Part shown: one piece after another, positions 11,126 to 28,320 of the stretch | Position numbering within the stretch: the first letter of the stretch is position 1 | How the letters are laid out: the number at the start of each line of letters is the position of its first letter | NCBI GenBank assembly: GCA_029262115.1 | Contig: JAJCZZ010000063.1 | Coordinates: 1 to 64,000, forward strand | Reading direction: 5' to 3' | Length of the DNA stretch: 64,000 nucleotides | From: Gemmatimonadota bacterium | GTDB taxonomy: Bacteria > Gemmatimonadota > Gemmatimonadetes > Longimicrobiales > Gaopeijiaceae | Position numbers and translations under genes: made by a program | The notes under the pieces: generated by a model | Databases searched by the model: none | What the model was told of the DNA's origin: nothing | The model's input: the letters and a program-made list of their open reading frames with translations, nothing else

Positions 11126-13002
11126 GACGTTTCGGATCGCTTGTGACCATACTGACTGCTGTGCCCCTGCTCGCATTCGGACCCGGCGAACGTGTCGCGG
11201 GAACGCATTGGGCGCTAATGATCGGCATCAGCGACTACACGAACTTCGACGACGTGGAAGGGGGGGATCTCCCTGGCGCTCAGTTCGATGCGATGGGAAT
11301 GCGGGACGTTCTCCTCCAGAAGTACGACTTCCCGGAAGCGAACGTGCGTACGCTGCTCAACGGTCAGGCGACCCGAGCCGCCATCCAGGAGAGCATCACC
11401 GGTTGGCTGACCGAGAACGCCCGGCCCGGCGACAACGTCGTGGTGTTCTTTGCCGGTCATGGTTCTCAGATGTGGGACGAGAACGGCGACGAAGACGACG
11501 GATTGGACGAGACGATCGCTCCCGCGGACGTGTCTCCGAACAGCACGGACTTCGACATCTCCGACGACACGTTCGGAGAGTGGCTGTCGGCGTTGCCGAC
11601 CGACAACGTGGTGGTGTTGCTCGACAACTGTAACTCGGGCACCGGCACCCGCGACGTGACGCCGTTCTCGCGCTCCCGTGAGCTCGGTCGCGATGTCAAC
11701 GCGCTTTCGAAGCCTGCTTCGGCGGCCCGCCGCGCGCTCCCCGGCCAGGTGGACGAAACGGGCTTCGACGCGGGCCACAGCCGGGTCCTGGAGTTGGCGG
11801 CGGCACAGCCGCATCAGGCGGCCGTCGATGCTTTTTTCCCGGGGGGGGATGGCGAGGAGTCGTTCCACGGGGGCGCGTTCACGACCTTCCTGGTCCGCCA
11901 ACTCTGGAGGGCCCCCGCCGATGCTACGTATGAAGAGGTCTTCCGCGATGTCCACGAGGCTCTGAAGCGGAATCGCTTCCAGCAGGACCCCCATCTGTCC
12001 GAAGACGTGTCGCTCAAGGACATGTCGCTCTTCTTCGTGGAAGGCGCAGAGCCCATGGAGGCCGACGCCGCCCTTCCGGTCGTGTCCTCGGACGGTGGAA
12101 CCGCTCGCCTCGGCGGCGGCCAGACGCTCGGGATCACGACGGGCTCGGTGTTCGAGGTCGGGACGGCTCGACTCGTGGTCGAGACGGTCGAGCAGACCGC
12201 CAGCACCGCCAGGGTGTCCAGGGGTGCCGTATCCGCTGGGGATCGAGCCAAGCTCATTGGGTATCGGTACCCGAGCGTTCCGCTTCGCGTGAACGTAGCA
12301 GGCCTCGACTCGGAGTCGGCGGACGCTCTCACGAGCGCTGTTTCCGAGAACCAGCAGGTCGACCTCGTCCGCGAGGACGGTGCCTTCAGCCACCTGTTGA
12401 TCCGGCGTCGCGGGACGGAACTCCGGGTGGTCGGTTCCGACGGGTTCCTGCGCCACGAGGGCCTACCGGCTGGGAGTGCCGGTGCCGCGGATCTGGCGTC
12501 GATCCTGAGCGCGGAGGCCGCCGCGAAGCAGTTGGCCGACATGGAGAACCCCGCCCAGCCGTTCGGGGTGGAGCTACGGCTGGTGGACGGACGGACGTCG
12601 TTCGGGGTCGGCGAGGAGATCAGCTTCCACGTGACCAGCCATCGTGACGGTTACTTGACACTCGTGGATCTGGGCACGGACGGGACCGTTGCCGTGCTCC
12701 TTCCCAACGGACAAGCCCCCTCGATGCAGGTGAAGGCCGGGCAGGAGGTCTCGTTCCCCGCCGCCGACGCAGGCTTTGCGCTTCAGGCGCTCCCACCGGC
12801 GGGTCGCGGTATGGTGCGGGCGTTCGTCACCCCTCGGCCGCTCGAGATTCGAATCCCGGCGGGCGAAGACTACGCGACCGGGGGTGCCGAACTCGCGGGC
12901 TGGATCGCCGATCAGGTGCGTGCCGCCGCCGGCGAGATCGACGAAGCGGTGCGCCTCGACAGTTGGGCCACGTCCTCGCTGGTGTACGACATCCACAACT
13001 GA
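11122..13002 (+). CDS. Exported caspase-like (C14) protease with DUF4384-type domain
   Basis: 626 residues. Residues 1-27 are a signal peptide. Residues ~28-310 form a caspase/metacaspase domain: WALMIGISDY, then the catalytic His in FFAGHGSQ (His113) and catalytic Cys in LLDNCNSG (Cys170; the family more often has DxCHSG). Residues ~345-480 are less clear; ~480-575 look like DUF4384, a domain often attached to bacterial caspases. It starts with GTG at 11122 behind AAGGAG and overlaps the upstream gene. Expected location is periplasm or cell surface. Orthocaspases cut after basic residues; the target is unknown. Followed after 54 bases by the CHASE2 cyclase. Confidence 0.85.
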   Translation: MRRFGSLVTILTAVPLLAFGPGERVAGTHWALMIGISDYTNFDDVEGGDLPGAQFDAMGMRDVLLQKYDFPEANVRTLLNGQATRAAIQESITGWLTENARPGDNVVVFFAGHGSQMWDENGDEDDGLDETIAPADVSPNSTDFDISDDTFGEWLSALPTDNVVVLLDNCNSGTGTRDVTPFSRSRELGRDVNALSKPASAARRALPGQVDETGFDAGHSRVLELAAAQPHQAAVDAFFPGGDGEESFHGGAFTTFLVRQLWRAPADATYEEVFRDVHEALKRNRFQQDPHLSEDVSLKDMSLFFVEGAEPMEADAALPVVSSDGGTARLGGGQTLGITTGSVFEVGTARLVVETVEQTASTARVSRGAVSAGDRAKLIGYRYPSVPLRVNVAGLDSESADALTSAVSENQQVDLVREDGAFSHLLIRRRGTELRVVGSDGFLRHEGLPAGSAGAADLASILSAEAAAKQLADMENPAQPFGVELRLVDGRTSFGVGEEISFHVTSHRDGYLTLVDLGTDGTVAVLLPNGQAPSMQVKAGQEVSFPAADAGFALQALPPAGRGMVRAFVTPRPLEIRIPAGEDYATGGAELAGWIADQVRAAAGEIDEAVRLDSWATSSLVYDIHN

Positions 13003-13056
13003 TCGAAGCGTCCCGCGGGTCAACGCTCCGATCCAACTGCGCGCCGAGGTGACTGA

Positions 13057-15297
13057 GTGAAGGCGAAGCGACTCCTCGCCCTCGGTCTGGTAGTCACCGT
13101 TACGGTGGCGCTCGCGCTGCTGGCGGACGCGGTGGGGGGGCTCACCGGCATCGATCAACTCCGGTATAAGACGCTCGATTGGCGCCAGAACACCACCGTG
13201 CAGTCGTTCCAGCCGGGCGTCGGTACCGACGAGAGCGACATCACGCTCGTCTTTTTCGACGAGTTCGCGGTGACCGATCCCGAGTTCGGTTGGGCGTGGG
13301 AGCAGCCCTTTCCCCGAGCGCACATCGCGAACGTCATCGACGTGGTGGCAGCGGGTGGCGCGCGCACGATCGGTCTCGACGTCTATCTCCAACTCATGTA
13401 TCCGCGCCTCAACGAGATCGACGGCGGAGACGATCTCCTGGTCGACGCCATCGAACGGGCCGGCAACGTGGTGCTCGTGGGCCCCGTGCTTCAAACCTCG
13501 AACGGACCACGGTTGGGTCCACCCGATCCGGCCTTCGGGGCGGTCGCGGCGGACGTCGGCGCCGCCGAGCTCCCCACCGCGTTCGAGACCGTCCGGGACG
13601 GCACGCTGGCGGTCCGGTCCGGAGTCAGGCTCGAGCCCTCCTTTTCTCTGGCGCTCTACGGGCATGCGCGGAGCATCGACGTGGACGATCTCCTGCGCCG
13701 GTCCCGGCGGTGGGGTCGCATTCCGCTTCCCGGCCTGCCGTCGAGCCTGGGCCAGGTCCCGGACGACTGGTGGGAGCAGGGCACCGCGTCATCCAGCGTG
13801 ATCGTACCATTTCCCATCCGGTACCACGGCCCGCCATCCAGCTCCGACGGCTTCGATCCGATCGGGACGTTCGCCGCCGTCTCGTCCGCAAACGTCGACC
13901 TGACCGCCCTGACTCAGCCGGAGCTCTTCGAAGACAAGATCGTCCTGATCGGTTCCGGCTTCCACGACTCCGACAAGTTTCGAACCGCCTTCTTCGGTCA
14001 GAAAGCTCCCCCCGCCGAAGAGGGGGGTGACGCCCGGACCTATGAATGGATGTACGGAGTGGAGGTCCACGCCAACGCGCTTCAGACGATGCTCTCCGAG
14101 GAGTACGTCCGACCGCTCGGAGAGCGGGCGGAGCTCCTGGTCCTGTTCCTGGCCGGCCTGGTGGTCGGCGTCGTCGTGTTCTCGCAAGGCGCCGGCTGGG
14201 GTGGCGTGGCCACGGCGGCGGTGATCGGGAGCCTCATGGTCCTGGGCTTCTGGACCTGGGCCGGAGAAGCGTACGGCCCCGGTGGTCGGTGGTTCGGTCT
14301 CGGGCGGCCCTACCTCTGGTTCCCGATCGTGACGCCCGCGCTCGCGACCCTCCTCTCGTACGTCGGCTCGGTAGCGTACGTCTCCGTGGTGGAAGGGCGC
14401 GAAAAGCGCTTCATCAAGGGCGCCTTCAGCAAGTACGTATCGCCCGAGGTGGTTGAAGAGATCGCCGAGAACCCCGGCGCCCTCCAACTCGGCGGTCAGA
14501 AGCGACCCCTTACCATGCTCTTCTCCGACCTGGCCGGCTTCACCACGCTGTCCGAAAGGATGGATCCGCAGGATCTGCTCGCCCATCTCAACGAGTACCT
14601 GAGCGAGATGACCCAGATCGTCATGGATGAAACGGGCACCCTCGACAAGTACATCGGCGATGCCATCATGGCGTTCTGGAACGCGCCGAGGGCCGTGGGC
14701 GACCACGCGGACCGAGGGCTCAAAACCGCGATCCTGATGCAGCGGAAAATGGGCGAACTCAACGAACGCTGGATGTCGGCCGACCCGGAGGCCGAAGAAC
14801 TGGTGGTGCGCATCGGTGTGAACACCGGGACGGTCGTCGTGGGCAACGTCGGCGGAAAGGAACGGTTCGATTACTCCGCAATCGGCGACGCCGTCAATCT
14901 GGCCGCCCGTCTGGAACCGGCGAACAAGACCTACGACACGCTGGTCATGGCCTCGGAGTACACGATGGACGCCGCCGATCGATCCGCGTTCCGGGTCCGG
15001 GAGCTCGACCGGATCGCCGTGAAGGGAAAGGAGCGGCCCGTCACGGTGTACGAAGTTCTGGAGATGGCTGGTGCGCGGCTGGCCGACCATCGGGAAAAGG
15101 CGTTCGAGCACTACGAAGCCGGCCTGGCCGCTTACAAGAATCGCGACTGGACGCTCGCGGCGACCTATTTCGAGGCAGCGTTGACCGCCGATCCCCAGGA
15201 CGGCCCGAGCGCCGTGTATCTGGCCCGCGCCCGGGAATATCAGACCGACCCACCACCCGCCGATTGGGATTTCGTGGTGCGACGGACGTCGAAGTAG
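13057..15297 (+). CDS. CHASE2-sensor class III nucleotide cyclase
   Basis: 746 residues. One N-terminal membrane helix (~5-25), a large extracytoplasmic CHASE2 sensor (~30-350), three further membrane helices (~358-378, 385-405, 420-445), then a cytoplasmic class III cyclase domain (~480-660). Metal-binding Asp residues are visible in FSDLAGF (Asp491) and YIGDAIMAF (Asp535), the Lys before YIGD suits ATP, and AIGDAVNLAARLE is conserved. The C-terminal ~70 residues look TPR-like. It should convert an outside signal to cAMP. GTG start at 13057, with GAGG seven bases upstream. A cNMP-binding protein at 5278 is a possible receiver. CHASE2 cyclases next to FecR-like proteins are known elsewhere. 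Confidence 0.9.
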   Translation: MKAKRLLALGLVVTVTVALALLADAVGGLTGIDQLRYKTLDWRQNTTVQSFQPGVGTDESDITLVFFDEFAVTDPEFGWAWEQPFPRAHIANVIDVVAAGGARTIGLDVYLQLMYPRLNEIDGGDDLLVDAIERAGNVVLVGPVLQTSNGPRLGPPDPAFGAVAADVGAAELPTAFETVRDGTLAVRSGVRLEPSFSLALYGHARSIDVDDLLRRSRRWGRIPLPGLPSSLGQVPDDWWEQGTASSSVIVPFPIRYHGPPSSSDGFDPIGTFAAVSSANVDLTALTQPELFEDKIVLIGSGFHDSDKFRTAFFGQKAPPAEEGGDARTYEWMYGVEVHANALQTMLSEEYVRPLGERAELLVLFLAGLVVGVVVFSQGAGWGGVATAAVIGSLMVLGFWTWAGEAYGPGGRWFGLGRPYLWFPIVTPALATLLSYVGSVAYVSVVEGREKRFIKGAFSKYVSPEVVEEIAENPGALQLGGQKRPLTMLFSDLAGFTTLSERMDPQDLLAHLNEYLSEMTQIVMDETGTLDKYIGDAIMAFWNAPRAVGDHADRGLKTAILMQRKMGELNERWMSADPEAEELVVRIGVNTGTVVVGNVGGKERFDYSAIGDAVNLAARLEPANKTYDTLVMASEYTMDAADRSAFRVRELDRIAVKGKERPVTVYEVLEMAGARLADHREKAFEHYEAGLAAYKNRDWTLAATYFEAALTADPQDGPSAVYLARAREYQTDPPPADWDFVVRRTSK

Positions 15298-15356
15298 AAG
15301 ATTGGAAGGAGGGGATGCGCCCCGCGCACCCACGGACGACGTACTTGGAGACGAAC

Positions 15357-16283
15357 ATGGTGAAGCATCTACCGCTCGCCGCGATGGTCGCGGCCGCGAT
15401 CGCCACGCCGCTGGCGGCTCAGGAAGACGCGGCCGCATTGGTCATGCGCCTATCCGGGCAGGTCCAGGTCCGACAGGGGGGTGCCGCCGCCGCTCCGGCT
15501 CGGCTCGGCGACCGTTTGATTGCGGGCGCCCAGATCATGCCGGAGGACGGCAGCCGCGCGATCCTGATCACGCGGGCGGGCGCCACGATGAACGTCACCG
15601 AGAACACGACGGTATCGGCCCCGTCGAGCGGTGGGAATCCCGACCTGTTCGATCGGGCCATACGGACGCTCGCGCAAGCGGCGTCCAGCGACGCGAGGAC
15701 CGCCGGCGGCCGTCAAGGGATGATCCGGCCGATTCCGGGTGAACCGGTTCTGGTGGCGCCTCGAAACGGACTGATGGTGGCGACCACGCGCCCGACGTTC
15801 CGGTGGATGGCCGTGGACGGTGCCGACGGCTACACCATCCAGATCCGCCGTGTGGATGGGGGTCGACCGGTGCGTTTCGATACGGGCGTTTCGTCGGACT
15901 GGACCCTCCCCGCAGATGCGCCAGGCCTCCTCCCTGGCGCCACCTACGCCTGGACCGTCGCCCCGTCCATGGGGCGCCCGACACGGGAACAACAGTTCAG
16001 GGTCATCAGCGGGGACGAGTACTCGGAGCTCGAGGCCGGCTTCGCCGAGGTGAGCGCGATGGGCGTCGATCCCATGACCGACGGACTCTTCCTGACGGCC
16101 ATCATCTACCGGGATCTCGGGTTGGTCTACGACGCCCACGCGGCCCTGAAGGGGTTGGCGAGCGCGGGCGCCGGGGAGTTCACCGCGGATCTCTACCTCC
16201 TCGAAGGTGAGATCCTCAACCAGCTCGGTCGGGCCGAGGAAGCGACGGCCGCGTTCGACAAGGCGGACGCCCTGCTCCGATGA
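15357..16283 (+). CDS. Exported FecR-like protein with TPR-like C-terminus
   Basis: 308 residues. A signal peptide with an AQ cleavage point (PLAAQ, ~20) is followed by a FecR-like beta domain (~25-110: VMRLSGQVQVRQ, ARLGDRLIAGAQI, GSRAILITRAGATM), an Ig/Fn-like segment (~140-225), and a helical tail that ends like a TPR (QLGRAEEATAAFDKADALL). FecR-like domains commonly sense or tether periplasmic ligands and recur beside CHASE2 cyclases. GGAG lies six bases before the ATG at 15357; the frame is open upstream to 15264 into the cyclase gene. Its stop overlaps the next start as ATGA (16280-16283). Confidence 0.8.
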   Translation: MVKHLPLAAMVAAAIATPLAAQEDAAALVMRLSGQVQVRQGGAAAAPARLGDRLIAGAQIMPEDGSRAILITRAGATMNVTENTTVSAPSSGGNPDLFDRAIRTLAQAASSDARTAGGRQGMIRPIPGEPVLVAPRNGLMVATTRPTFRWMAVDGADGYTIQIRRVDGGRPVRFDTGVSSDWTLPADAPGLLPGATYAWTVAPSMGRPTREQQFRVISGDEYSELEAGFAEVSAMGVDPMTDGLFLTAIIYRDLGLVYDAHAALKGLASAGAGEFTADLYLLEGEILNQLGRAEEATAAFDKADALLR

Positions 16284-17905
16284 CGAAGACGCCTTCGACG
16301 GAGGAGGCGCTCCGCGCCGAACTGGAACAGGCCCGCTCGGAGCTACAGCAGCTCAACAAGATCGGGATGGCGCTCATGAGCGAGCGCGATCCGGAGCGGC
16401 TGCTCAACCTCATCCTGACGCAGGCACGTAAGCTCACGAACTCGGACGCCGGAAGCCTGTATCTCGTCGAGCCCGGCGACGACGGGGGGGAGCGGCTGCA
16501 CTTCCTGCGCTCTCAGAACCACACGTTACCCGACCTTCCGTCGCCGAACTTCACACTCCCGATCGACGAGAGCAGCATTGCCGGCTACGTCGCGTCGTGC
16601 GGTGAACCGCTCGTTCTCGACGACGTGTACGAGATCCCGGCTCACCTGCCGTTTTCGTTCAATAAGGCGGCTTTCGACGAGAAGTTCGGGTATCGGGCCA
16701 AGTCGATGCTGGCGGTGCCGATGACCGACCATCGAGACAAGGTGGTCGGAGTGGTGCAGCTCATCAATCGGAAATCGGACCCGGAGGCGGTCGTCCGCGA
16801 TGACGCCGAAGCCGACCGATCCGTGCTGCCCTACTCCCCACGCGATGTGTCACTCGTCCACTCTCTCGCGGGGCAGGCGGCCGTTTCGATCGAGAACGGC
16901 CGTCTCTATCAATCGATAGAGAATCTGTTCGCGGGCTTCATCAAAGCGGCCGTGACCGCGATCGACCGCCGGGACCCGACGACCTCGGGCCACTCGGTTC
17001 GTGTAACCGAACTCACCTGCGACACGGCCCGGCTGATCAACGAGCGGACGGAGGGCCCGTTCGCCGACGCGCACTTCACGGCGGACCAGATGAAGCAGCT
17101 ACGCTACGCCGGACTGCTGCACGACTTCGGTAAGATTGGCGTGCGCGAGGAAGTCCTCGTCAAGGAGGAGAAGCTACCGCCGGTCCTCCGTGCCCAGGTG
17201 GCGGCCCGTTTCGCGCTGATCCGGAAGACCCTCGAGGCCGACGCCTACCGGGCGCGAGCCGAGTGCCTGGCAGCCGGTGGAGGATCGGACGGGGCTGACG
17301 ACGCGATCGAGGCCATTGATCGACAGTTGAAGGAAGACATCGAGCGACTGGACCGCTACTGGACGGCCGTGCAGGAGGCGAACGTCCCGAGGGCCATGGA
17401 CGAGGAGGCTGCCGGCATTCTCGAGGAGATCGGCACGCAAGTCTTCAAAGACGATCTCGGTGAGGACCGCCCGTATCTGGCGCCTCACGAGTTGCACTTC
17501 CTGAGCATCAAACGTGGAAGCCTCGATCCGGACGAGCGCAAGCAGATCGAGTCCCATGTGATCCACAGCTACGACTTTCTGCTCGATATCCCGTGGACCG
17601 ACGACTTGTGTCGGATTGCCGAGATCGTGCGCGGCCACCACGAGAAGCTGAACGGAAAGGGATACCCCGATGGCGTGACCGGCGACCAGCTCTGCCTGGA
17701 GACGCGTATCATGACCGTGTGCGACATCTTCGACGCGCTGACGGCCAGCGACCGACCGTACAAGAAGGCCATGCCGGTGGAGAAGGCACTCCAGATCCTA
17801 CGTTGGGAAGCCGAGGAAGGCGCTTTGGACGCGGACATTGTGGAGCTGTTCGCGGAGAGCAAAGTATACGAAAAGGTCCTGGCCACCGACTGGCGGGAGC
17901 TGTAG
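16280..17905 (+). CDS. GAF + HD-GYP domain signalling phosphodiesterase
   Basis: 541 residues. A short coiled coil (~5-30), a GAF domain (~35-210) and an HD-GYP domain (~220-535). HD is at His281-Asp282 (LLHDFGKIGV), the HHE at 453-455 and the GYP at 461-463, so the residues that hydrolyse c-di-GMP or related cyclic dinucleotides are present. About 130 residues of helical sequence are inserted between the HD helix and the second half of the domain (roughly 295-430), more than usual. No membrane segment, so cytoplasmic. Coupled to the FecR-like gene by ATGA overlap. Last gene of the run from 10226. Confidence 0.9.
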   Translation: MTKTPSTEEALRAELEQARSELQQLNKIGMALMSERDPERLLNLILTQARKLTNSDAGSLYLVEPGDDGGERLHFLRSQNHTLPDLPSPNFTLPIDESSIAGYVASCGEPLVLDDVYEIPAHLPFSFNKAAFDEKFGYRAKSMLAVPMTDHRDKVVGVVQLINRKSDPEAVVRDDAEADRSVLPYSPRDVSLVHSLAGQAAVSIENGRLYQSIENLFAGFIKAAVTAIDRRDPTTSGHSVRVTELTCDTARLINERTEGPFADAHFTADQMKQLRYAGLLHDFGKIGVREEVLVKEEKLPPVLRAQVAARFALIRKTLEADAYRARAECLAAGGGSDGADDAIEAIDRQLKEDIERLDRYWTAVQEANVPRAMDEEAAGILEEIGTQVFKDDLGEDRPYLAPHELHFLSIKRGSLDPDERKQIESHVIHSYDFLLDIPWTDDLCRIAEIVRGHHEKLNGKGYPDGVTGDQLCLETRIMTVCDIFDALTASDRPYKKAMPVEKALQILRWEAEEGALDADIVELFAESKVYEKVLATDWREL

Positions 17906-18103: not shown

Positions 18104-18850
18104 TCAACCTCCTAGCCGCGCCACTCCCTCCCTCGCGGCGGCATTTCCACGGCTGGCTGCCGCCTGGTACCAACGAAGCGCGGCAGCTCTGTCGGCGGTG
18201 ACGCCGCGCCCCGCCTCGTACGCCTCGCCCAGCCGCAACTGCGCGATCGCGTCGCCCGCCTCCGCTGCCGCGCGCCACCACCGAGCCGCGAGCGCGTGGC
18301 CCTGCGCAACCCCACGACCGGCGCGGTAGGCGTTGCCGAGGTTGTGCTGGGCAAGGACGTGTCCTCGTTCGGACGCGGCCCGGTACCATTCTGCCGCCTC
18401 CACCGGATCGCCTTCGACGCCGAGGGCCTCGTCGTACACCGTTCCCATCAGGAACATCGCTTCTGGATGGCCTCGATCCGCGAGAACACGCACGGAGTCG
18501 ACCACATCCGCCGCCAACGCTACGGCCAAGGCCGAGTCCCGGGGAAAGCCCATTCGTCCGCGCGAGTGCGCTCGTGCGACCCACATCCGGCCCAGCAGAT
18601 CTCCATCGGAACGGGCACTGAGGAGCAAGCGACGAGCCTCCTCGTCGTCGACTCGGCCGGCCACGCCCGTATACAGCGCGATGGACTTGGCGAGGTCCGG
18701 GTGCAGCCGGGCGGCTGGAGAAGCGCAGGCAGAGGCGGAGGCAACGATCAGTATCCAGGCGCCTACGCCATTAGGACGCCTGGGACGCGGACCAGAGATC
18801 CGATCAAGATCTCGGCGTAGCATCGAGAGCGAGGCGGTGCGTGAAAGCAT
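18104..18850 (-). CDS. Sel1-repeat lipoprotein
   Basis: About 248 residues. A basic start and a lipobox (SASACASP, ~45) precede a Sel1-like repeat array (~115-245): GHPEAMFLMGTVYDEALGV, GHVLAQHNLGNAYRAGRGV, GDAIAQLRLGEAYEAGRGV, then AAALRWYQAAASRGNAAAR. Such solenoids bind other proteins, often in the periplasm. GGAGG upstream supports the ATG at 18850; the frame is open to 19018 but would cover the neighbouring gene. It converges on the HD-GYP gene; the 198 bases between hold no clear gene or terminator. Confidence 0.85.
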   Translation of the reverse strand: MLSRTASLSMLRRDLDRISGPRPRRPNGVGAWILIVASASACASPAARLHPDLAKSIALYTGVAGRVDDEEARRLLLSARSDGDLLGRMWVARAHSRGRMGFPRDSALAVALAADVVDSVRVLADRGHPEAMFLMGTVYDEALGVEGDPVEAAEWYRAASERGHVLAQHNLGNAYRAGRGVAQGHALAARWWRAAAEAGDAIAQLRLGEAYEAGRGVTADRAAALRWYQAAASRGNAAAREGVARLGG

Positions 18851-18905
18851 GACGGATATTCCTCCAGACCCGGTCGGCCGTGCAAGTCGAGCGCGCCTCA
18901 ACGCG

Positions 18906-19457
18906 CTACCCGGCCCCCTCCAGCCGCCACGTCCCCACCACGGACCCGACGCTGTCCTGCGGGATATCGAACGGAGCGCACGTCCACGTCCCTTCGGCCG
19001 ATGATGGCCCGGACACATGACCAGTCATGTGTCCGATCGCCTCGTAGAACGGCACGCCCGTCCCGACGTTGATGGGCGTGACCAGCTCCAGGCTGTCGCC
19101 GCCGAGCAAGCGTATGTGGTTCTCACGGCTGAACAAGAAGGGCTTGAGCGACATGCCCGACCCATCAGGCTGGAGCACATCGCGCGCGACATCTCCGCCC
19201 CCCTCCGTCACATAGACGCGCCCGCTGGCTTCCAGGCGTTCCGAGCCGTCCCATGTGAACACCATGTCCATCGCACACTGGATGGTCAGAGAGCCCGCCG
19301 TCCCCGTCGCTTCACCCCGCAAGGTATACTGGGCTGGCGGACGAAACGTCGTCTCTTCCGGGAGGGTCGGATCGCTCCCGCACGCCGCGGCCGCCGCGAG
19401 CACCAGGGCAATCGCACCGACCGAGCAGCATCGCAGACCTCCCCCCGTGGACACCAT
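18906..19457 (-). CDS. Predicted lipoprotein, unknown function
   Basis: 183 residues. Clear lipoprotein signal (VLAAAAACGSDP). The mature part is mainly beta-strand (QYTLRGEATGTAGSLTIQC, MDMVFTWDGSERLEASGR) and ends VGTWRLEGAG, like a small barrel or lipocalin-type fold, but no family is certain. It is followed on the same strand by the Sel1 lipoprotein after 55 bases, so they may share a transcript. 19458-19595 upstream shows no gene. Confidence 0.75.
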   Translation of the reverse strand: MVSTGGGLRCCSVGAIALVLAAAAACGSDPTLPEETTFRPPAQYTLRGEATGTAGSLTIQCAMDMVFTWDGSERLEASGRVYVTEGGGDVARDVLQPDGSGMSLKPFLFSRENHIRLLGGDSLELVTPINVGTGVPFYEAIGHMTGHVSGPSSAEGTWTCAPFDIPQDSVGSVVGTWRLEGAG

Positions 19458-19595
19458 TCCCGTCCCCCCGTTTCAGCCAGTGACGCTGGACCTCCGAGTC
19501 CCGAGGCCCGTCATCCCGAAAACGACTGAATACCGGCGATGTGACAAGCAGCGCGACCCAGCTCACTGCCACACTGGCCCGCCACTCCGGGAGTG

Positions 19596-21995
19596 TCAGG
19601 CCGCTTCCGCCGCTGTTGAGGCCGCACGCGGCCCGGGTTCCATACCACGCAGCGCCAGAGCCGAGAGCGCGTAGAGGCCCGCGCCGATCCAGAGGTTGAC
19701 GCGGATGCCCACGTGGATGGCAATGAACACCGCCAGCGCGGACGCCACCACGCCCATGACGCCGTTGAGGGCCCAGAACCACGGCGTCTGGGTATCCGAG
19801 GTCCGGCTGGCCAGGGCCATTCCCGTCGGAAAGAAGAAGCCCAACAGAACGCCCACGGGAAAGATGACGGCCACGCTGACGACGATGCGCGCCGGCCGGG
19901 ACCACGGGGCCACGGCGTCCGCCATGATGGGAAGCACCACGGTCAACCCTGCCACCGCTACGGCCGTGACCATCGGCCACGCCCAACGCCAAGGAGCCCG
20001 GTCCAGCGGCAACCGCTCACTCAGGAAGCTCCCCACGCCCGTGCTCAGGATGATGGTGAAGAGCAGGACGCCAAGGGCGTACACGGGGTGGCCCAGGACC
20101 AGCGACAGCCGCTGGATCAGCCCGATTTCCACGAGCATGAACGCCGCACCTATCACGGAGAAGTAAGCGGCACCGGCCCACTGATGCCGGCCCCGGAGGC
20201 CGCCACCCCTGAGCAGGAGCGGCACCACGATGGTCAGCCCCGCCACGACGATGAGCGAGGCCAGCAACCCTACCAGCACCCCGGTGGCAATGAGGTTACC
20301 ACGAAGCACGCCCCCGCGCAGTTCCCGGGCCCCGTCGACCATGAAGAGTTCTCGGAGCGCGTCCCCCAGGCGGAGCATGTTGAAGAAGTATGGTCGGTCG
20401 TCCGTGGGCGGCCGCACGTCCAGGTCGGCATCCGCCGCCTGGGCCTTGATGTCGGACATAGAACGGGCGCGCAGGAGGCCTGCCAGAAGCGGATCGGAGG
20501 GAGGGGTTCCCGGGAAGAAGGTCAGGGAGTATCGCTTCGCGTTCGCCACCTCTTCCAGGGTGCCAAGGTCCCGGGGCGTGAGGGGCGATCGGGCCATCAG
20601 AAGCGTGGACAGGCGGCTGGTCGTGACCAGCGCCAGATGGTCCTCGGGCCGCTCGACCCCCCGCCCAAGGAGCGTCGCCACCGCCAGGCTCACGACCCGG
20701 GCCGTTTCGCCGAGGCTCACCGGGTCGTGCCACCGGGATACAGTGAAGATCCCGTCCGGGCGGAGGCGGTCCAGGATGTGGCCCCACCCCTCCAGGGTAT
20801 ACAGACCACTCTCCGTATGGGCGTAGGCCCCCACGCCCGTCGCTGCCCAGGTATCGATCATCGACATCTGGATGAGCGCGAATTCCTCCCTGGAGCGGGC
20901 GAGATAGCTCCGCGCGTCGTCGACCACGAAGCGAACGCCCGGCCTGTCGGCCAGCCCCGCGAACTCCCGCAGGTCTTCCTCGAGGATGTTCACGAAGACC
21001 GGGTTCACCTCGACGCCGACAACCCGCTCGTGACCGAAGGACACCGCCGCCTGGACATCACGGCCGCCGCCGACCCCGATGATAGCCGCACCTCCCGACG
21101 GCCGCAGGAAGTACGCGACGTTGGTCACGTCCCAGGCAAGGTGCGAGACATCCTCGTCGGTGCGGTAGGGGCCGAGCGACGTTCCGGCCTCGCCGTCGAT
21201 GTTCATATAGAACTGACGGAGCACTGTAGCCGGTGCCGCGGGACTCGCCCCCCAGTACCAGGGAGAGGCATCCACCGGCCGGTACACGACCACTCGCGAA
21301 AAGGAGTTCCAGCGGTCCAACACCTCGAGTTCCGGAACCGCGCGCCTTCCCTTGACGGTCGTCGGAGCAATGGGGAGCACGCCGATCATGCCAAGCACCG
21401 TCAGGACGCTGAGCAGGAGGAGCGCCGCCTGTCCCGACCGGGCGCTACCCGCCCCGCCTCCCCGCGCGTATGCCACGGACGCCGCGCCCGCGAAGGCCCC
21501 ACACAGTAGGATCAGGCTCGGCACGTCCATGACCTCGAGCGCGCCCAGCACGAGCAGACATCCAGTGGCCGCGCCCACCAGGTCGGCGGCGTAGACCCGG
21601 GCGACCGGCGCCGCAGAGCGGGTCAGAACCAGGGTCAGGGCAATGCCCGCATAGTAGTAGGGCAGGGCGCACGCCAGGGTCACGGCCAGAAGCCCCACCA
21701 CCATCAGGACCGGGTCCGCCAGCGTGATCGGCACCCGCGTGAGCACCACCAGCGTCAGCGGCACCACGAGGGCGAACAGCGCGGACGCGTCGCTGGCGCG
21801 CCGGAGCACGTCGGGAGATCCGCGCTCGGGGGCCCGGAGGTAGACGTTCACCGCCCCGGCGGTCATGCCCAGCATGGCCGCAGAGATGGCGAAGAAGGCC
21901 AGGTGGTACCACGTGACCACGCTCAGCAGCCGCGTGAGCGCGATCTCCAGCGCAAGCGACGCGAACGCGACCAGGAACGTACCCGCGTAGATCAG
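19596..21995 (-). CDS. Polytopic membrane protein with spermidine-synthase-like methyltransferase domain
   Basis: About 799 residues. N-terminal membrane block (~1-200; SLALEIALTRLLSV is the family hallmark), a soluble Rossmann domain resembling spermidine synthase (~270-500: IIGVGGGRDVQAAVSFG, VVGVEVNPVFV, FVVDDARSYLARS), and a C-terminal membrane block (~560-790). The substrate is unknown; many such proteins are not true polyamine synthases. The frame is open upstream only as shadow of the caspase gene and contains no ATG, GTG or TTG near the first membrane helix. The best start is CTG at 21995, overlapping the caspase stop as CTGA. Third gene of the leftward unit from 24438. Confidence 0.75.
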   Translation of the reverse strand: MIYAGTFLVAFASLALEIALTRLLSVVTWYHLAFFAISAAMLGMTAGAVNVYLRAPERGSPDVLRRASDASALFALVVPLTLVVLTRVPITLADPVLMVVGLLAVTLACALPYYYAGIALTLVLTRSAAPVARVYAADLVGAATGCLLVLGALEVMDVPSLILLCGAFAGAASVAYARGGGAGSARSGQAALLLLSVLTVLGMIGVLPIAPTTVKGRRAVPELEVLDRWNSFSRVVVYRPVDASPWYWGASPAAPATVLRQFYMNIDGEAGTSLGPYRTDEDVSHLAWDVTNVAYFLRPSGGAAIIGVGGGRDVQAAVSFGHERVVGVEVNPVFVNILEEDLREFAGLADRPGVRFVVDDARSYLARSREEFALIQMSMIDTWAATGVGAYAHTESGLYTLEGWGHILDRLRPDGIFTVSRWHDPVSLGETARVVSLAVATLLGRGVERPEDHLALVTTSRLSTLLMARSPLTPRDLGTLEEVANAKRYSLTFFPGTPPSDPLLAGLLRARSMSDIKAQAADADLDVRPPTDDRPYFFNMLRLGDALRELFMVDGARELRGGVLRGNLIATGVLVGLLASLIVVAGLTIVVPLLLRGGGLRGRHQWAGAAYFSVIGAAFMLVEIGLIQRLSLVLGHPVYALGVLLFTIILSTGVGSFLSERLPLDRAPWRWAWPMVTAVAVAGLTVVLPIMADAVAPWSRPARIVVSVAVIFPVGVLLGFFFPTGMALASRTSDTQTPWFWALNGVMGVVASALAVFIAIHVGIRVNLWIGAGLYALSALALRGMEPGPRAASTAAEAA

Positions 21996-23749
21996 CCTCC
22001 GCCCCCGACAACCGCCAGCGGGATATCCCCAAACCCGGACCGCTGCGGGTTCTGCCGCCCATCGGTCGCGGTGCGCACGTTGCTGGCCACGTAATCGAAC
22101 AGCTCCGTGAACGTGACGATACCGTCGGAGTTCATGTCGCCGTGGCCGCCCAACCCTTCCAGCAGGAAGTGAGTGAAGACGCCGTGTCCCCCCCACCGAG
22201 AATCTTCGAGTGAGAACTCGTTGGTGTCGGCAGCCGTCATCATCAGGCGCCTCGACGGAGTGAACAGTTGCGAGAAGCCGCCGGCGATCGCGTTGTCGTC
22301 CGATCCCCCCACGACGTCGCCGTCGGCCGTGCCGGCGGAGTGGCACGCGTCTGCGATGACGAGGACCCGCTCCGCGGCGATCTGACGGCGGAGCGCCGTC
22401 TTCACATCCCACATCGGGAATCCGGTCGCGCCGAGCGAATTCAGGTCGGAATCCGTCGGGAGCAGGTAGAGATTGTCCGGGCGCATCGGGTCGGGGGCGC
22501 CGTGGCCCGCGTAGTAGATGACGACCAGGTCGTCCCAGTCGGCCTGCTGCAGGAAGACGAACAGCGCCTCCCGCATTGCCGCCCCGGTGGCCTCTTCGTC
22601 CGCGAGGTAAAGCACTTCGTCAAACGGGCCCGCGGCGTCGCTCTTCAAGAAGTTGTAGACGGCTTCGGCATCCGCGCGGGCGAACTCGAGGTCGGGAATG
22701 TCCTCCGACTCGTACTCTCCGACGCCGATGACCACGGCCCAGCGCTTGTCGATCCTCGGGGCGGCCAGCGTCTCCGAGATGCTCCCTCCGGGGCCCTCCG
22801 CCACGATGCGCACGGAGTCCTGGGAAATTGGAAGGCTGAACTCACGGTAGAAGCGCTGCGCCTGCTGGCCACTGATGCCGAGCCGGGTCGCTTCCTCCGC
22901 ACCCAGGGGCTCCACGAGCGCCGGCGCTCCGTCGACCTGAATGGAGCGAGTCGGACCGACCACCACCCCTTCGAGGCGGACCGTATTGCGCACACCGGAC
23001 AGATCCTTCCCGCCCTTGCGCACCACGCCGATCCCACGGGTGGCCACGTTCCCGTCCGACGGAAGGACGTCGGCTCTGAGGATCGCCACGCCCGGACCCT
23101 GCCCAGATGCAGTCTGGGTGCCCTTCGTCCTGGACGGAACCGACCCCGGATCGGGCTGCCAATACATGGCCTCCTGCCAGGGGCGGGTTTCCCAGTCGTT
23201 CAGCACACCCCCGATGAGCCCGGACGCCGCCAGAACTTCCTGGGTGGCTTGGCGAACGACCTTGGCCTTGGCGGCCTGATCCGTCGCTTCGATTCCGCGG
23301 GCGTCCGCGACACCCTCTCCGATGACGTTGCCGTGGTCGAGCCGGATGGCCCGGATCGCAACCTCGGTGGTGGCCGTCACGAGCGTGCCATCGACCGGAT
23401 CCGGTCGGGTCGCGAAGTCCGCCACGCCCAGAAACAGGATCTGCGCGCCGAAGTCCCGACCGAGTTCCACGGCAGCGAGGTCGTCGCCGTTGGTCGCAGC
23501 CTGTACGAGCTCGCGCTGCGCGGCGTCCGCGGCCAGGGCGGGGTCGATGACGGGGAAGCCCGCCTCACGCAAAAAGGCCGTCATCTCACGGGCGGCAACG
23601 CGGCCTCGCCCTTCTTCTTCAATGAAGACGAGGGCCCGCGGCATCTCCGTGGCAAACGTGATGTCCTGCCCCGCAGCCGGGATGACCAATATCCCCAGCC
23701 CAATCGCGGCCACGGCAAAACGAAGAACGAGTGAGCGGACGTGCATCAT
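21992..23749 (-). CDS. Exported caspase-like (C14) protease with EF-hand-like motif
   Basis: 585 residues. Signal peptide 1-28 (VIPAAGQ). Residues ~35-170 are a beta/alpha domain like CsgG or LPP20 accessory domains (RALVFIEEEGRG, LAAVELGRDFGAQILFLG). The caspase domain is ~335-575: KRWAVVIGVGEYES, catalytic His416 in YYAGHG and Cys469 in IADACHSAG. Near the C-terminus DMNSDGIVTFTELFDYV is a calcium-binding EF-hand-like loop, as seen in other bacterial caspases. Secreted to the periplasm. The ATG overlaps the stop of the CsgG gene (23746-23749). Activation by calcium is plausible from the motif only. Confidence 0.85.
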   Translation of the reverse strand: MMHVRSLVLRFAVAAIGLGILVIPAAGQDITFATEMPRALVFIEEEGRGRVAAREMTAFLREAGFPVIDPALAADAAQRELVQAATNGDDLAAVELGRDFGAQILFLGVADFATRPDPVDGTLVTATTEVAIRAIRLDHGNVIGEGVADARGIEATDQAAKAKVVRQATQEVLAASGLIGGVLNDWETRPWQEAMYWQPDPGSVPSRTKGTQTASGQGPGVAILRADVLPSDGNVATRGIGVVRKGGKDLSGVRNTVRLEGVVVGPTRSIQVDGAPALVEPLGAEEATRLGISGQQAQRFYREFSLPISQDSVRIVAEGPGGSISETLAAPRIDKRWAVVIGVGEYESEDIPDLEFARADAEAVYNFLKSDAAGPFDEVLYLADEEATGAAMREALFVFLQQADWDDLVVIYYAGHGAPDPMRPDNLYLLPTDSDLNSLGATGFPMWDVKTALRRQIAAERVLVIADACHSAGTADGDVVGGSDDNAIAGGFSQLFTPSRRLMMTAADTNEFSLEDSRWGGHGVFTHFLLEGLGGHGDMNSDGIVTFTELFDYVASNVRTATDGRQNPQRSGFGDIPLAVVGGGG

Positions 23750-24438
23750 GTATCTCCCTCGAGACGCTGGAGCGCGCGCCGCGCATCCCGGTGGTTCGGA
23801 TAGATGGCCAACGCTGCGCGATAGTGCTCGATGGCTTTTGCGGCCTCGCCTCTGTCTTCGAAGTCCACCGCTCGGGAGAACTCTATAGTGGCTTTGATCG
23901 GAATCGGCTCAATCGCGGGGCGGTCGGACGGCGTGACCAGATTCAACTGACCACCGAACTCGTCAGCCACCCAGACGATCACACCGAGCAACTCCGCGGT
24001 CTTGTCCATCTTCTTCAGCACGGACACGACTTCGGACGTCTCGACGTCCACGGCGCGGATGTCCAGTCGGAGGTTGTCGGCGATGCTGGCCACCTGGCCG
24101 TGGAAGACGTATTGAGCCCCCAGAAGCTTGCCAACCTCGACCGCGCTCGACTCCTCGACGCGACCGGACAACGCCAGGCGCTGCTCCGTCAGCAGTTCCT
24201 GCAACTGAGCGCGCTCAATGACCCTGATATCGGTCCGACCGCTGAATTCGGTCACGAGCATGGCCGCGACGGCCTTGCCCAGATTGACCGAATTCCCCGC
24301 CTCTCCCAGCATGAACCCCGTGAAGTCCAGCACGGCAACCGTGGGAATATCGTCCCCGGCGCCCTGGGCAGGCGCATCCTGTACTGCCAACGCGACCGCT
24401 GCGAGTGCGGCGGCCAAGACGGCCATGTGGGTGCGCAA
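23746..24438 (-). CDS. Exported CsgG-family protein
   Basis: About 230 residues. Signal peptide (AALAAVALAVQDAPAQG), then a CsgG-like domain (~35-165: VAVLDFTGFMLGEAGN, DIRVIERAQLQELLTEQ, LGAQYVFHGQVASI) and a short TPR-like tail (AAKAIEHYRAALAIYP). There is no lipobox. CsgG-family proteins form or support outer-membrane secretion pores; a lone domain like this may be periplasmic. The start is TTG at 24438 because AGGAGG lies five bases upstream; the ATG at 24426 is 17 bases away from it. It leads the unit CsgG-caspase-membrane methyltransferase, divergent from the second CsgG gene. Confidence 0.85.
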   Translation of the reverse strand: MRTHMAVLAAALAAVALAVQDAPAQGAGDDIPTVAVLDFTGFMLGEAGNSVNLGKAVAAMLVTEFSGRTDIRVIERAQLQELLTEQRLALSGRVEESSAVEVGKLLGAQYVFHGQVASIADNLRLDIRAVDVETSEVVSVLKKMDKTAELLGVIVWVADEFGGQLNLVTPSDRPAIEPIPIKATIEFSRAVDFEDRGEAAKAIEHYRAALAIYPNHRDARRALQRLEGDT

Positions 24439-24509
24439 TCCATCCTCCTGTAATCGAACCGGCAATTCGGACGAACGCCTCCGCTGGAGGCGCGAAAGGC
24501 GGACACCTC

Positions 24510-24522
24510 AGGAAAAATTCCT
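24510..24522. promoter_or_regulatory. 13-bp dyad in the divergent CsgG promoter region
   Basis: Perfect inverted repeat (AGGAA, three A, TTCCT) between the two divergent CsgG units, just upstream of the putative -35 of the rightward one. Could be an operator; only the symmetry supports it. Confidence 0.35.
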
Positions 24523-24551
24523 TTGCCCGCCCCAATGCCTAACCCTAAATT
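24523..24551 (+). promoter_or_regulatory. Putative sigma70-like promoter for the TPR-CsgG operon
   Basis: TTGCCC (24523-24528) and TAAATT (24546-24551) are spaced by 17 bases in an AT-rich patch, giving a leader of about 80 bases to the ATG at 24641. Confidence 0.35.
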
Positions 24552-24640
24552 TACCAATGCCCTCGCGGGAGTGCGAGAAGTAATTTCCACGCATGCTCCC
24601 GAAGGCCTCCCCCGGCCCCCTTCGCTCCGCAGGAGCCCCA

Positions 24641-26065
24641 ATGAGGTTCAGCCACCCGTCCCGTAGCCTCCAACTCGTTCTGGCCACGCTGTTCGCATCC
24701 AGCCTCGGCGCCTGCGCCTACCGCGTTCCCGAGGCCGATCCCGCGGACATCCCCCGGCTCCAGCGTGAGATCGCCGCAGACCCCGTCGACACGGATCTCC
24801 AGGTCCAACTCGGCATGGCCCAGTACAAAGCGGGCGATAGCGATGCGGCGGGTGCGACCCTCTCCGCTGCGGTCGAAGCAGGCAATGAATCGGGAGCGGC
24901 CCTTCTCTACCTGGGGATGGTACACGAAGAGGAGGCCAACTGGTCCTCCGCACGCGATGCGTACGGACGCTATCTCTCGGTCGGGAAGTCGGAGCCGCTC
25001 AAGGGGGAGATCCGAAAGCGCCTTCAGTTGATTGCTCAGAACGTACTTCGGGACCAGGCCCGGCAAGCGCTGGAGCAGGAGACGGGCCTGACGGCGCAGA
25101 CCACGCCGCGCTCGGTCGCGATCCTGCCGTTCGCGTTCAACTCGGACCGGGAGGATCTGGAACCGCTCATCTACGCCCTCTCGGATATGATGATCACCGA
25201 CTTCGCGATCTCGAACGCTCTGACCGTTCTCGAGCGTGCCCGGATCCAGACACTCCTGGACGAGATGGCCCTGACCGAGGCCGGGTACGCAGATGCGGCG
25301 ACCGGCGCCCGGGCCGGCCGACTATTGCAGGCCGAGCATGTCGTGCAGGGCGTGCTTACCACGCTCGGTGACGAAACCCTTCGGATGGACACGGAGGTGC
25401 TGAACATCCCTCGGGCCGCCTCTGCCGGATCGGTGGACGCGCAGGACGAGTTGAACAACCTGTTCGAGATGGAGAAGGACCTCGTATTCCGGACGCTCCG
25501 GGACGTGCTGTCCATCGAGCTCACGCCGGCGGAAGAGCAAGCCATTCGGGAGAACCGCTCCGACAACGTCCTGGCCTTTCTGGCCTACGGCCGCGGTCTG
25601 CGGGAGCGAGACCGAGGCAATTACGCCGCAGCCCTGGCCAACTTCCAGCAGGCCCAGCAGTTGGATCCGGGATACGCCGCCGCCGGAGACGCCGCAGGCG
25701 TGACGCAAGATCTGCAAGACGCCGCTACCACCGGTACGGGCGACATCGTCCAGGTTGCGGCCACCACTGGGGAGACCGGTGGAGGGGGCGCTGTAGCGCC
25801 GCCTCCCACGACTTCGGCGACGACCACCGCGACCGGGACTGGAGCCACGGGTGGTGCCGCCTCCGGGGCGCTCGGGAACGCGGCGGAAGGGGTGAACCCG
25901 ACTCCGACCACCGGCACCCTGGGCGCGGGGACCACCACCTCGACGACGGGTGAGAAGACCGACCCCAAACGGGACCCTGTCCAGGAGTCGCAGGGTCAGG
26001 AAGGTGTGACGTCGACCGCAACCGCGCAGATCCGTATCGTGATCCGTCGGCCGGGGGGAGAGTGA
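24641..26065 (+). CDS. TPR-CsgG lipoprotein with Thr/Gly/Ala-rich linker
   Basis: 474 residues. Lipoprotein signal (SSLGACAYR). Residues ~30-130 are TPR-like (VQLGMAQYKAGDSDAAGATL, LLYLGMVHEEEANWSSARDAYG). Residues ~150-300 form a CsgG-type domain (RSVAILPFAFNSDRED, LTVLERARIQTLLDEMAL, AEHVVQGVLTTLGDE), then another TPR unit (~325-355). The last ~110 residues are a low-complexity Thr/Gly/Ala stretch, probably a wall or surface linker. AGGAG five bases before ATG 24641 sets the start. One base separates its stop from the beta-barrel gene, so the two likely act together at the outer membrane. Confidence 0.85.
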   Translation: MRFSHPSRSLQLVLATLFASSLGACAYRVPEADPADIPRLQREIAADPVDTDLQVQLGMAQYKAGDSDAAGATLSAAVEAGNESGAALLYLGMVHEEEANWSSARDAYGRYLSVGKSEPLKGEIRKRLQLIAQNVLRDQARQALEQETGLTAQTTPRSVAILPFAFNSDREDLEPLIYALSDMMITDFAISNALTVLERARIQTLLDEMALTEAGYADAATGARAGRLLQAEHVVQGVLTTLGDETLRMDTEVLNIPRAASAGSVDAQDELNNLFEMEKDLVFRTLRDVLSIELTPAEEQAIRENRSDNVLAFLAYGRGLRERDRGNYAAALANFQQAQQLDPGYAAAGDAAGVTQDLQDAATTGTGDIVQVAATTGETGGGGAVAPPPTTSATTTATGTGATGGAASGALGNAAEGVNPTPTTGTLGAGTTTSTTGEKTDPKRDPVQESQGQEGVTSTATAQIRIVIRRPGGE

Positions 26066-26066
26066 G

Positions 26067-27206
26067 GTGATTCGTCTTGTGAGCACGAGGGGCACGGGAT
26101 TGGCGGCAACGACCGCCCTTTTCATGGCAGCTCCCGTGGCCGCCCAGCAATCGATCGGAGTGAACGCTTCCTACCGCGGGTATTCGTTCGACCAGGGTCT
26201 CGGCGCCGAGGCTGCACAGCTCTTCATGGTACCGGTGGCTGTTCGCTTCCCCATCGGGTCCCAGGTCTCGCTCGACGTCTTCTCCGCATGGGCCGAAGGC
26301 AAGGTCGAGCGGGCGGGTACGGAGTTTTCCCTGTCCGGCGTGGTCGACACCCGGGTCAAGGCCTCGTACCAGGCCACGCCCTGGGCGCTGCTGAGCGTGG
26401 GCGTCAGCCTCCCTACCGGGAAGGCGAGTCACGACAGTGAGGAAGCGGTCGTGGCCGCCGTCCTGGCCACGGACCTCCTGGGCTTCCAGGAAGCGACCTG
26501 GGGAACGGGGCTCGCCGTCACCACGGCGGCCGCCACAGCCGTGCAGGCGGGTAGCTTCGGAATCGGCTTCGCGGGGGCCTATTCGGTGCGGGGTCAGTTC
26601 GAGCCTCAGTCGGGGTCCGAACTCACCTACCAGCCAGGCAACGAGACCCGCTTCCGCATTGGCATCGACCGGAACTTCGGCAACAGCACGTTGACGGCCG
26701 GTGGGACGTTCATGCGGTACAGTCAAGACCAGGCGAACGGCCTCAACTTCTTCCAGGCCGGAAACCGGCTCCGTTTCGACGCCGCGTACGCGTTCCGGGC
26801 GGGTGCGGGGGTGTGGACCCTCTACGCCGCGGATCTGTGGCGCGAGAACGGTGATGTGACCCTCGGGATCGTCGACGATTCGGGCGCGACCGTGAGCGAC
26901 ACGACCTTTGCCACCGCGAGCCAGAACCTCCTGGTGGGAGGTGTCGCGGGGAGCATCGCACTCGGAGCCTATCGGTTCCTGCCCCAGATCGATTTCAAGT
27001 ACCAGGCGCGCGAGGAAGCCGACGGACGGGACGAAGGATCCGGCTGGGTCGTTGGAGCTGGCGGAGACTTTCCCATCCGTCTCTTCGGGGCGTACGACTT
27101 CATCCCACGAGCCCGCGTCCTGTTCGGGTCGATCAAAGACCCCACGGGAGTCGGTCGCGGCGTGACCGGCGGCGAGTTTTCGGGCACGATTCGATGGTCT
27201 TTCTGA
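26067..27206 (+). CDS. Outer-membrane beta-barrel protein
   Basis: 379 residues. Signal peptide (AAPVAAQQ, ~28), then alternating amphipathic strands through the whole chain (VNASYRGYSFDQGLG, RVKASYQATPWALLSVGVSL, IDFKYQAREEADG) and a terminal FSGTIRWSF, whose final Phe is the classic barrel assembly signal. The number of strands is not certain. GTG start at 26067 just after the upstream TGA, with a G-rich ribosome site. Paired with the TPR-CsgG lipoprotein it could form an export or surface-anchoring complex; that is inference from order. Confidence 0.8.
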   Translation: MIRLVSTRGTGLAATTALFMAAPVAAQQSIGVNASYRGYSFDQGLGAEAAQLFMVPVAVRFPIGSQVSLDVFSAWAEGKVERAGTEFSLSGVVDTRVKASYQATPWALLSVGVSLPTGKASHDSEEAVVAAVLATDLLGFQEATWGTGLAVTTAAATAVQAGSFGIGFAGAYSVRGQFEPQSGSELTYQPGNETRFRIGIDRNFGNSTLTAGGTFMRYSQDQANGLNFFQAGNRLRFDAAYAFRAGAGVWTLYAADLWRENGDVTLGIVDDSGATVSDTTFATASQNLLVGGVAGSIALGAYRFLPQIDFKYQAREEADGRDEGSGWVVGAGGDFPIRLFGAYDFIPRARVLFGSIKDPTGVGRGVTGGEFSGTIRWSF

Positions 27207-27225: not shown

Positions 27226-28320
27226 TTGAGTCCCGAAAACCAGATCCGCCGCATTGCCGTCAACACCGGCGGTGGCGACGCCCCCGGTCTGAACGCCGTC
27301 ATCCGCGCCGTAGTGCTCTCCGCCGACCAGCGCGGGTGGGAGGTCTACGGCATCGAGGAGAGCTACGACGGACTCTTTCGCGAGGGGGGCGTCCGACGCC
27401 TCGATCGTGCGGCCGTCCGAGGCATCACCCATCTCGGCGGGACGATCCTGGGCACGACGAACCGGGGCGACCCCCTACAGTACCCGGTCACTGCGCCCGA
27501 CGGAACCGCCACCAAGCTCGATCGTGGCGATGAGGTGATCAGGATTCTGCGCGAGCGGGAGATCGACGCGCTGATCGCCATCGGGGGAGACGGTTCCCTG
27601 GCCATCGCCGCCGAATTGCACGACCGAGGCCTCCGGGTCGTCGGCGTTCCGAAAACGATCGACAACGACCTCGCCGCTACGAACCTTACTTTCGGCTTCC
27701 TGACCGCCGTCGAGACGGCCACGGACGCGATCGACAAGCTGCATTCGACGGCGGCCGCCCATCGGCGGGTGATGGTCGTCGAGCTGATGGGCCGAAACGC
27801 CGGGTGGATCGCGCTGTTCGCCGGGGTCGCCGGCACCGCCGACGTGATTCTGGTGCCGGAGATCCCGTACGACATCGAGTCGGTGTGCGCCAAGATCGAG
27901 CACCGGTATACGAGCGGGCGAGGCTTCGCCATCGTGGTGGCCGCCGAGGGAGCGTATCCGAAGGGGGGCGACGCCTCCTACGAGACCAAGGGAGGCGGAC
28001 AGGTCCGCCTTGGCGGCGTCGCGGACAGCGTGGCCGCGGAGATCGAGGCGCGGACGGGGCGTGAAACGCGCACACTCGTGCTGGGTCACCTCCAGCGTGG
28101 AGGCGGTCCCATCGCGTACGACCGTCTCCTCGCCCTCCGCTTCGGGGCCGCCGCCGTCAAGCTGGTCGCGGAGGGGTGCTTCGGCTGCATGGTGGCGCTC
28201 GATCCGCCGGTGGTGCGGGCCGTTCCGCTGAAGGACGCCCTTGCCGAGAGGAAGACCGTACCGTTGGACTCGGATATCGTGCAGACCGCCCGAAGCCTCG
28301 GCGTGTGTCTGGGAGATTGA
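27226..28320 (+). CDS. pfkA: 6-phosphofructokinase
   Basis: 364 residues. Phosphorylates fructose 6-phosphate in glycolysis. Seen: the N-terminal nucleotide loop TGGGDAPGLNAVIR, GGDGSLAIA, PKTIDNDLAATNLTFGF with the catalytic Asp, MGRNAGWIALFAG, PEIPYD, and GHLQRGG near the C-terminus. The Gly after GGD favours ATP, while Lys before TIDND is the pyrophosphate-type residue; this Gly/Lys mix marks the group III, or mixed-substrate, clade. The start is TTG at 27226, without a convincing ribosome site. It lies 19 bases after the beta-barrel gene. Confidence 0.9.
   Translation: MSPENQIRRIAVNTGGGDAPGLNAVIRAVVLSADQRGWEVYGIEESYDGLFREGGVRRLDRAAVRGITHLGGTILGTTNRGDPLQYPVTAPDGTATKLDRGDEVIRILREREIDALIAIGGDGSLAIAAELHDRGLRVVGVPKTIDNDLAATNLTFGFLTAVETATDAIDKLHSTAAAHRRVMVVELMGRNAGWIALFAGVAGTADVILVPEIPYDIESVCAKIEHRYTSGRGFAIVVAAEGAYPKGGDASYETKGGGQVRLGGVADSVAAEIEARTGRETRTLVLGHLQRGGGPIAYDRLLALRFGAAAVKLVAEGCFGCMVALDPPVVRAVPLKDALAERKTVPLDSDIVQTARSLGVCLGD

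Follow-up and report, generated by a model that had tools for sequence, protein, structure and literature searches.

Bacterial caspases are mostly discussed as intracellular proteases of cell death or stress. In the part of a 2017 review that was available, orthocaspases are described as p20-only proteins in which additional domains are possible (PMC5756287), and the accessible part of a 2012 survey of prokaryotic caspase homologs lists one Gemmatimonadetes metacaspase, without the His/Cys pair, and contains no mention of csgg, periplasm or curli (PMC3501461). Among outer-membrane assemblies, the exopolysaccharide exporter PelBC consists, according to the available part of its description, of a 16-strand barrel, a TPR region and a 12-mer lipoprotein ring (PMC12141448). 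No publication describing a set of caspase, CsgG and barrel genes was found in the open-access literature searched. Such a set lies in the DNA considered here, a 64,000-nucleotide (nt) stretch (the window) of contig JAJCZZ010000063.1 from a Gemmatimonadota bacterium (GCA_029262115.1), in which genes for a predicted exported caspase and a CsgG-domain protein (CsgG1) diverge from genes for a CsgG-type lipoprotein (CsgG2) and a predicted outer-membrane beta-barrel. The protein belongs with the caspases and orthocaspases, but by its sequence it appears to be exported, and it is encoded with, or in one case fused to, CsgG-type envelope proteins; if this is true, caspase signalling would also have a site in the periplasm. 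The features of the set are the following, with signal peptides assigned by eye:

23746–24465, minus strand: CsgG1, an exported CsgG-domain protein with C-terminal TPR, a signal peptide and no lipobox
21992–23749, minus strand: caspase (Peptidase_C14) with a signal peptide, an N-terminal domain (about residues 35–180), a middle region (about 200–330) and a caspase domain (335–580)
22103–22138, minus strand: EF-hand-like loop DMNSDGIVTFTE, residues 538–549, within the caspase
24466–24640, no strand: intergenic region from which CsgG1 and CsgG2 diverge
24641–26065, plus strand: CsgG2 lipoprotein with an LGAC lipobox, in the order TPR, CsgG domain, TPR, low-complexity tail
26067–27206, plus strand: predicted outer-membrane beta-barrel of porin size, GTG start at 26067

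The genes on each side are tightly coupled. The stop codon of CsgG1 and the start codon of the caspase overlap by 4 nt (ATGA), and the barrel starts one base past the stop codon of CsgG2. The start of CsgG1 is ambiguous (TTG at 24465 or ATG at 24426), and the distance between the starts of CsgG1 and CsgG2 is 127–175 base pairs, varying with the choice of CsgG2 start. A sequence-only reading of this DNA had placed a CsgG gene at the head of the leftward unit, followed by an EF-hand caspase, and a TPR-CsgG lipoprotein at the head of the rightward unit, with a barrel one base later. Pfam searches bear out the CsgG and caspase assignments, with CsgG in CsgG1 (E-value 2.6e-15), Peptidase_C14 in the caspase (E-value 3.7e-19; 69.8 bits against a curated cut-off of 21.4) and CsgG, together with TPR, in CsgG2 (E-value 2.2e-7); both CsgG matches are above the cut-off, and they are the only two CsgG matches in the genome.

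The caspase p20 region carries the DACHS motif and the His/Cys pair, and the catalytic residues His416 and Cys469 are intact in all 16 orthologs. In the EF-hand-like loop, a putative calcium site, D1, T9 and E12 are likewise kept in 16 of 16. The caspase domain of a predicted model matches MALT1 (Z 20.5, root-mean-square deviation (rmsd) 2.5, 196 aligned) and metacaspase-4 (Z 20.3, rmsd 2.6, 209 aligned). In these respects the protein resembles orthocaspases and prokaryotic metacaspases, but it differs from them in being exported, in having a CsgG-like N-terminal domain and in its coupling to, or fusion with, a CsgG protein. MAFFT aligned CsgG1 rows onto this N-terminal domain, and profile comparison is suggestive, though no stronger than that, of a relationship between the two; a sequence search of the domain against the Protein Data Bank (PDB) returned no credible match. 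In a PADLOC search for anti-phage defence systems, the window matched only the generic model for caspases and, weakly, mads_2.

Both CsgG proteins belong among periplasmic domains of the CsgG/LpoB/FlgT type by their Pfam matches. In CsgG1, Pfam additionally finds TPR_2 and, more weakly, LpoB (E-value 1.6e-5) and FlgT, and its profile matches the solved structures of CsgG (E-value about 2e-6) and LpoB (0.0018). CsgG1 departs from these relatives in its partial profile match, its missing lipobox and its added TPRs. Of the 210 positions of the CsgG profile, CsgG1 covers 31–104 and CsgG2 covers 40–105; because CsgG1 matches this part only and has no lipobox, it probably does not contain the pore-forming part of CsgG. 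The lipobox cysteine of CsgG2 (Cys25) is invariant in five of five sequences.

The barrel has no Pfam family and no credible PDB match by sequence search. Its AlphaFold2 model (predicted local distance difference test (pLDDT) 82.5, predicted template modelling score 0.77) contains about 16–18 strands and is closest in fold to CdiB (Z 21.3, rmsd 3.5, 294 aligned), PgaA (20.0), CymA (19.6) and BcsC (19.0), while many porins score 16–18. The label "secretion-type" of the sequence-only reading is not established by this mixture of transporters and ordinary porins, and the fold was discarded as proof of secretion, transporters and porins being nearly equal in Z.

A search with the N-terminal domain of the caspase yielded 20 loci, 18 of them in Gemmatimonadota metagenome-assembled genomes and 2 in Bacteroidota (L063 and L064), where the domain lies within a CsgG-type protein without a caspase (the CsgG match was confirmed in L063). 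Three of the 18 (L046, L048 and L056) end before the CsgG2 side, and 11 of the other 15, which can be read across both sides, keep the divergence, with caspase and CsgG1 on one side, CsgG2 and barrel on the other, and a phosphofructokinase gene behind; L050 has the divergent four-gene layout with an internal deletion, and L062 is rearranged, with a CsgG2 tail, the barrel and a CsgG1::caspase fusion on one strand. Measured to the nearest start codon, the interval between the CsgG1 stop and the caspase is −3 to +5 nt at all 20 junctions, and that between the CsgG2 stop and the barrel is −3 to +3 nt at all 14, a regularity of spacing by which the arrangement exceeds chance. The set occurs in at least three families, and the conservation beyond close relatives on which the sequence-only reading had staked its proposal was thus found; of the five genes it had placed here, a divergent core of four is conserved, and the membrane methyltransferase-like gene is not.

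Across 395 genomes of the phylum, the caspase is strongly matched in 13 and is therefore rare and patchy. CsgG1 of the caspase-linked type (type A) is found in 17 genomes, including all 13 with the caspase, and the barrel of type A is present in 14, 12 of which belong to those 13; these counts rest on cuts at score gaps (417 against 336.6 bits for the barrel, 287 against 213.7 bits for CsgG1), which are partly circular, because some of the genomes counted had contributed to the profiles. A weak N-terminal domain match in G356 (E-value 8.7e-6), in a weak FlgT_N protein, was not counted as a caspase.

The closest coupling is seen in G044 (L043/L062), where CsgG1 and the caspase form a single open frame of 797 amino acids with one signal peptide, a natural fusion that offers a concrete protein for expression. 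The barrel gene lies immediately upstream of the fusion on the same strand and is itself preceded, at the contig end, by the C-terminal tail of a CsgG2-type protein, with IVIKRP as its last residues; a second contig of this genome ends inside a CsgG2 gene. CsgG2, barrel and fusion are likely to form one operon here, which falls short of proof because the two contigs do not overlap. In a tree of 32 barrels, from which three sister barrels (L143, L147 and L151) were omitted, the type-A set of 19 rows groups together (100/99); neither CsgG2 nor a caspase adjoins one of these barrels, L216. The G044 barrel groups with caspase-free barrels (97/92 and 90/90), apart from the other caspase-linked barrels, and the link between barrel and caspase therefore arose twice, or is old and has often been lost.

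Loss has also affected the genes jointly. In G257 and G201, CsgG1 is kept, only the final 53–70 codons of the caspase remain, and of CsgG2 and the barrel at most a 65-codon remnant survives, which indicates that the genes decay as a set. The decayed copies lie at L210:6572-7849 and L211:7593-8520, with CsgG1 intact in both and the CsgG2 remnant retained in L210. Together, the layout, the fusion and the co-occurrence in 13 of 13 and 12 of 13 genomes indicate that the two CsgG proteins, the caspase and the barrel belong to a linked set, and to that extent they agree with the envelope complex, controlling or displaying the protease, that the sequence-only reading had proposed.

With a probability of about one half, these genes constitute a cell-envelope module in which CsgG2 and the barrel are the platform, CsgG1 the adaptor and the exported caspase the effector. 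CsgG2, lipidated and bearing TPRs, and the barrel would form a complex in the outer membrane, and CsgG1 would act as a periplasmic adaptor whose CsgG-type domain holds the exported caspase beside the caspase's own CsgG-like N-terminal domain, so that the caspase would be retained on the periplasmic side of the outer membrane. The platform would sense damage or contact and switch on the caspase, perhaps with periplasmic calcium, and the activated protease would then cleave envelope or surface proteins.

Several observations weigh against this assignment. The caspase model is middling (pLDDT 65.9), and the homology between its N-terminal domain and CsgG1 is weak (hhalign probability 38.7, E-value 0.0003). 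In 2 of the 15 loci, L055 and L060, CsgG1 and the caspase stand without an adjoining CsgG2-barrel pair, and CsgG2 and the barrel are therefore not strictly needed; the genome of L055 (G352) has only a barrel of the caspase-free type, and in that of L060 (G057) no barrel match was found anywhere. In G039, the CsgG2-barrel pair lies on a different contig from CsgG1 and the caspase. CsgG1 occurs without an intact caspase in three genomes (G006, G257 and G201), and G339 has a barrel and a partial CsgG2 without a caspase or a close CsgG1; the locus in G389 is cut by the contig end. Among 59 genomes, no CsgG was found within about 1.5 kb of the other caspase loci scanned, and adjacency of CsgG and caspase at the Pfam level, compared by eye, is confined to type A. 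In favour of the assignment, a second exported caspase layout is present in G288 (L081:1-2823), where the caspase domain comes first, followed by a C-terminal region weakly matched by the N-domain profile (E-value 1.6e-4), and a CsgG gene follows directly (E-value 7e-27).

The same platform genes recur in a sister arrangement (type B), CsgG2-barrel pairs without a caspase, which 12 of the 59 genomes carry and which a CsgG1 homolog often accompanies. In 10 of 15 type-B loci, the barrel gene shares 4 nt at its stop with a following gene whose product begins like a lipoprotein (L149, missed by the search pattern, was counted by eye), and the four post-barrel lipoproteins scanned carry Big_2 Ig-like domains. 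The sheath gene VipB is present in all 12 type-B genomes against 5 of 47 others (Fisher 5.5e-9, relatedness ignored). The pairs with which it co-occurs are at L143–L156, L159 and L215. Type VI secretion system (T6SS) genes (VgrG, VasE, VipA/B and Hcp) lie in two sister loci and ClpV-like ATPases in two more, and kinase and FHA-trypsin genes are found in the three sister loci with candidates scanned. The FHA-trypsin proteins are encoded beside CsgG1 homologs or the barrel (L143:4443-6413, L153:1322-2941 and L156:10577-11956). Type B is thus homologous to type A in its CsgG2-barrel pair but has a lipoprotein partner and resides in T6SS genomes, whereas type A has a caspase and shows no T6SS link, with VipB in 2 of 10 genomes bearing its caspase and no match in the window genome. 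A broader proposal, offered tentatively, is a modular outer-membrane platform of Gemmatimonadota, made of a TPR-CsgG lipoprotein and a large barrel and in most cases joined by a CsgG adaptor in the periplasm, to which exchangeable exported partners would be attached: Ig-like lipoproteins in the T6SS-linked branch, or a caspase that would serve as an extracytoplasmic switch run by the envelope. The sister module makes the role of such a platform a testable idea.

An export function for the pair would be a different matter, with CsgG2 and the barrel as a PelC/PelB-like channel and the caspase as its cargo, exposed on the cell surface or released there. A CsgG-type lipoprotein that bears TPRs and is paired with a large outer-membrane barrel does recall PelBC as described in the available part of that account (PMC12141448), and the fold matches to CdiB, PgaA and BcsC and the lipoprotein genes that follow the sister barrels, as if occupying a cargo slot, point the same way. 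However, the TPR of the window set is on the lipoprotein and not on the barrel, its partner is a protease and not a set of polysaccharide enzymes, and PelC is not among the best 60 of the 75 PDB sequences matched by CsgG2. As porins score almost as highly as the transporters, and CsgG1 and the caspase occur without an adjoining barrel in L055 and L060, such a channel is a rather unlikely explanation.

The TagQR-PpkA path signals envelope damage for type VI secretion. By analogy, the CsgG-barrel pair might report such damage, driving the T6SS through the kinase and FHA-protease in the sister loci and the caspase in the window. The distribution of VipB and the kinase, FHA-trypsin, T6SS and ClpV-like genes of the sister loci fit this idea, but type-A genomes lack the T6SS association, and no kinase adjoins the module in the window, so that a role of this kind is improbable. 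Still less credible is a mere juxtaposition, in one clade, of an ordinary porin-like CsgG2-barrel pair and an independent CsgG1-caspase unit. The pair does exist elsewhere without a caspase, and it is missing beside CsgG1 and the caspase in the two loci named above; the presence of the barrel in 12 of the 13 caspase-bearing genomes among 395 argues against coincidence, as does the G044 barrel, which belongs to another subfamily and nevertheless lies directly upstream of the fused CsgG1::caspase gene.

Beyond the proposed envelope module, the surrounding DNA contains the following genes:

27226–28320, plus strand: phosphofructokinase (Pfam PFK, E-value 7e-101), a conserved neighbour that remains where the module is partly lost
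16280–17905, plus strand: GAF-HD-GYP gene, convergent with the caspase, a conserved neighbour in many relatives
18104–21995, minus strand: window-specific insert outside the conserved module, with a Sel1-repeat gene, a small lipoprotein gene and the membrane methyltransferase-like gene

The membrane gene (19596–21995, minus strand), which the sequence-only reading had counted in the leftward unit as a spermidine-synthase-like protein, has methyltransferase/spermidine-synthase similarity below threshold only. It is absent from all 18 loci and without an ortholog in the other 58 of the 59 genomes, five of which show weak matches to its methyltransferase part only, and it is ruled out as a member of the module. 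The stop/start overlaps that had been noted throughout this unit hold between CsgG1 and the caspase; the membrane gene overlaps the caspase stop if its start is taken to be the CTG at 21995 (CTGA), and not otherwise. This start is likely, and the gene is specific to the window genome among those searched. The gap between the caspase and the HD-GYP gene is 4086 nt in the window, compared with −4 to +87 nt in the four relatives measured; an increased gap is likewise seen in L045 and L058.

Upstream, positions 10226–17905 hold a run of genes encoding a metallo-beta-lactamase-fold protein, a second caspase with DUF4384, a CHASE2-guanylate cyclase, a protein that weakly matches the LapA retention module, and the GAF-HD-GYP protein. 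Most of this run recurs beside the type-A caspase in L034, L035, L039, L040, L042, L058 and L059.

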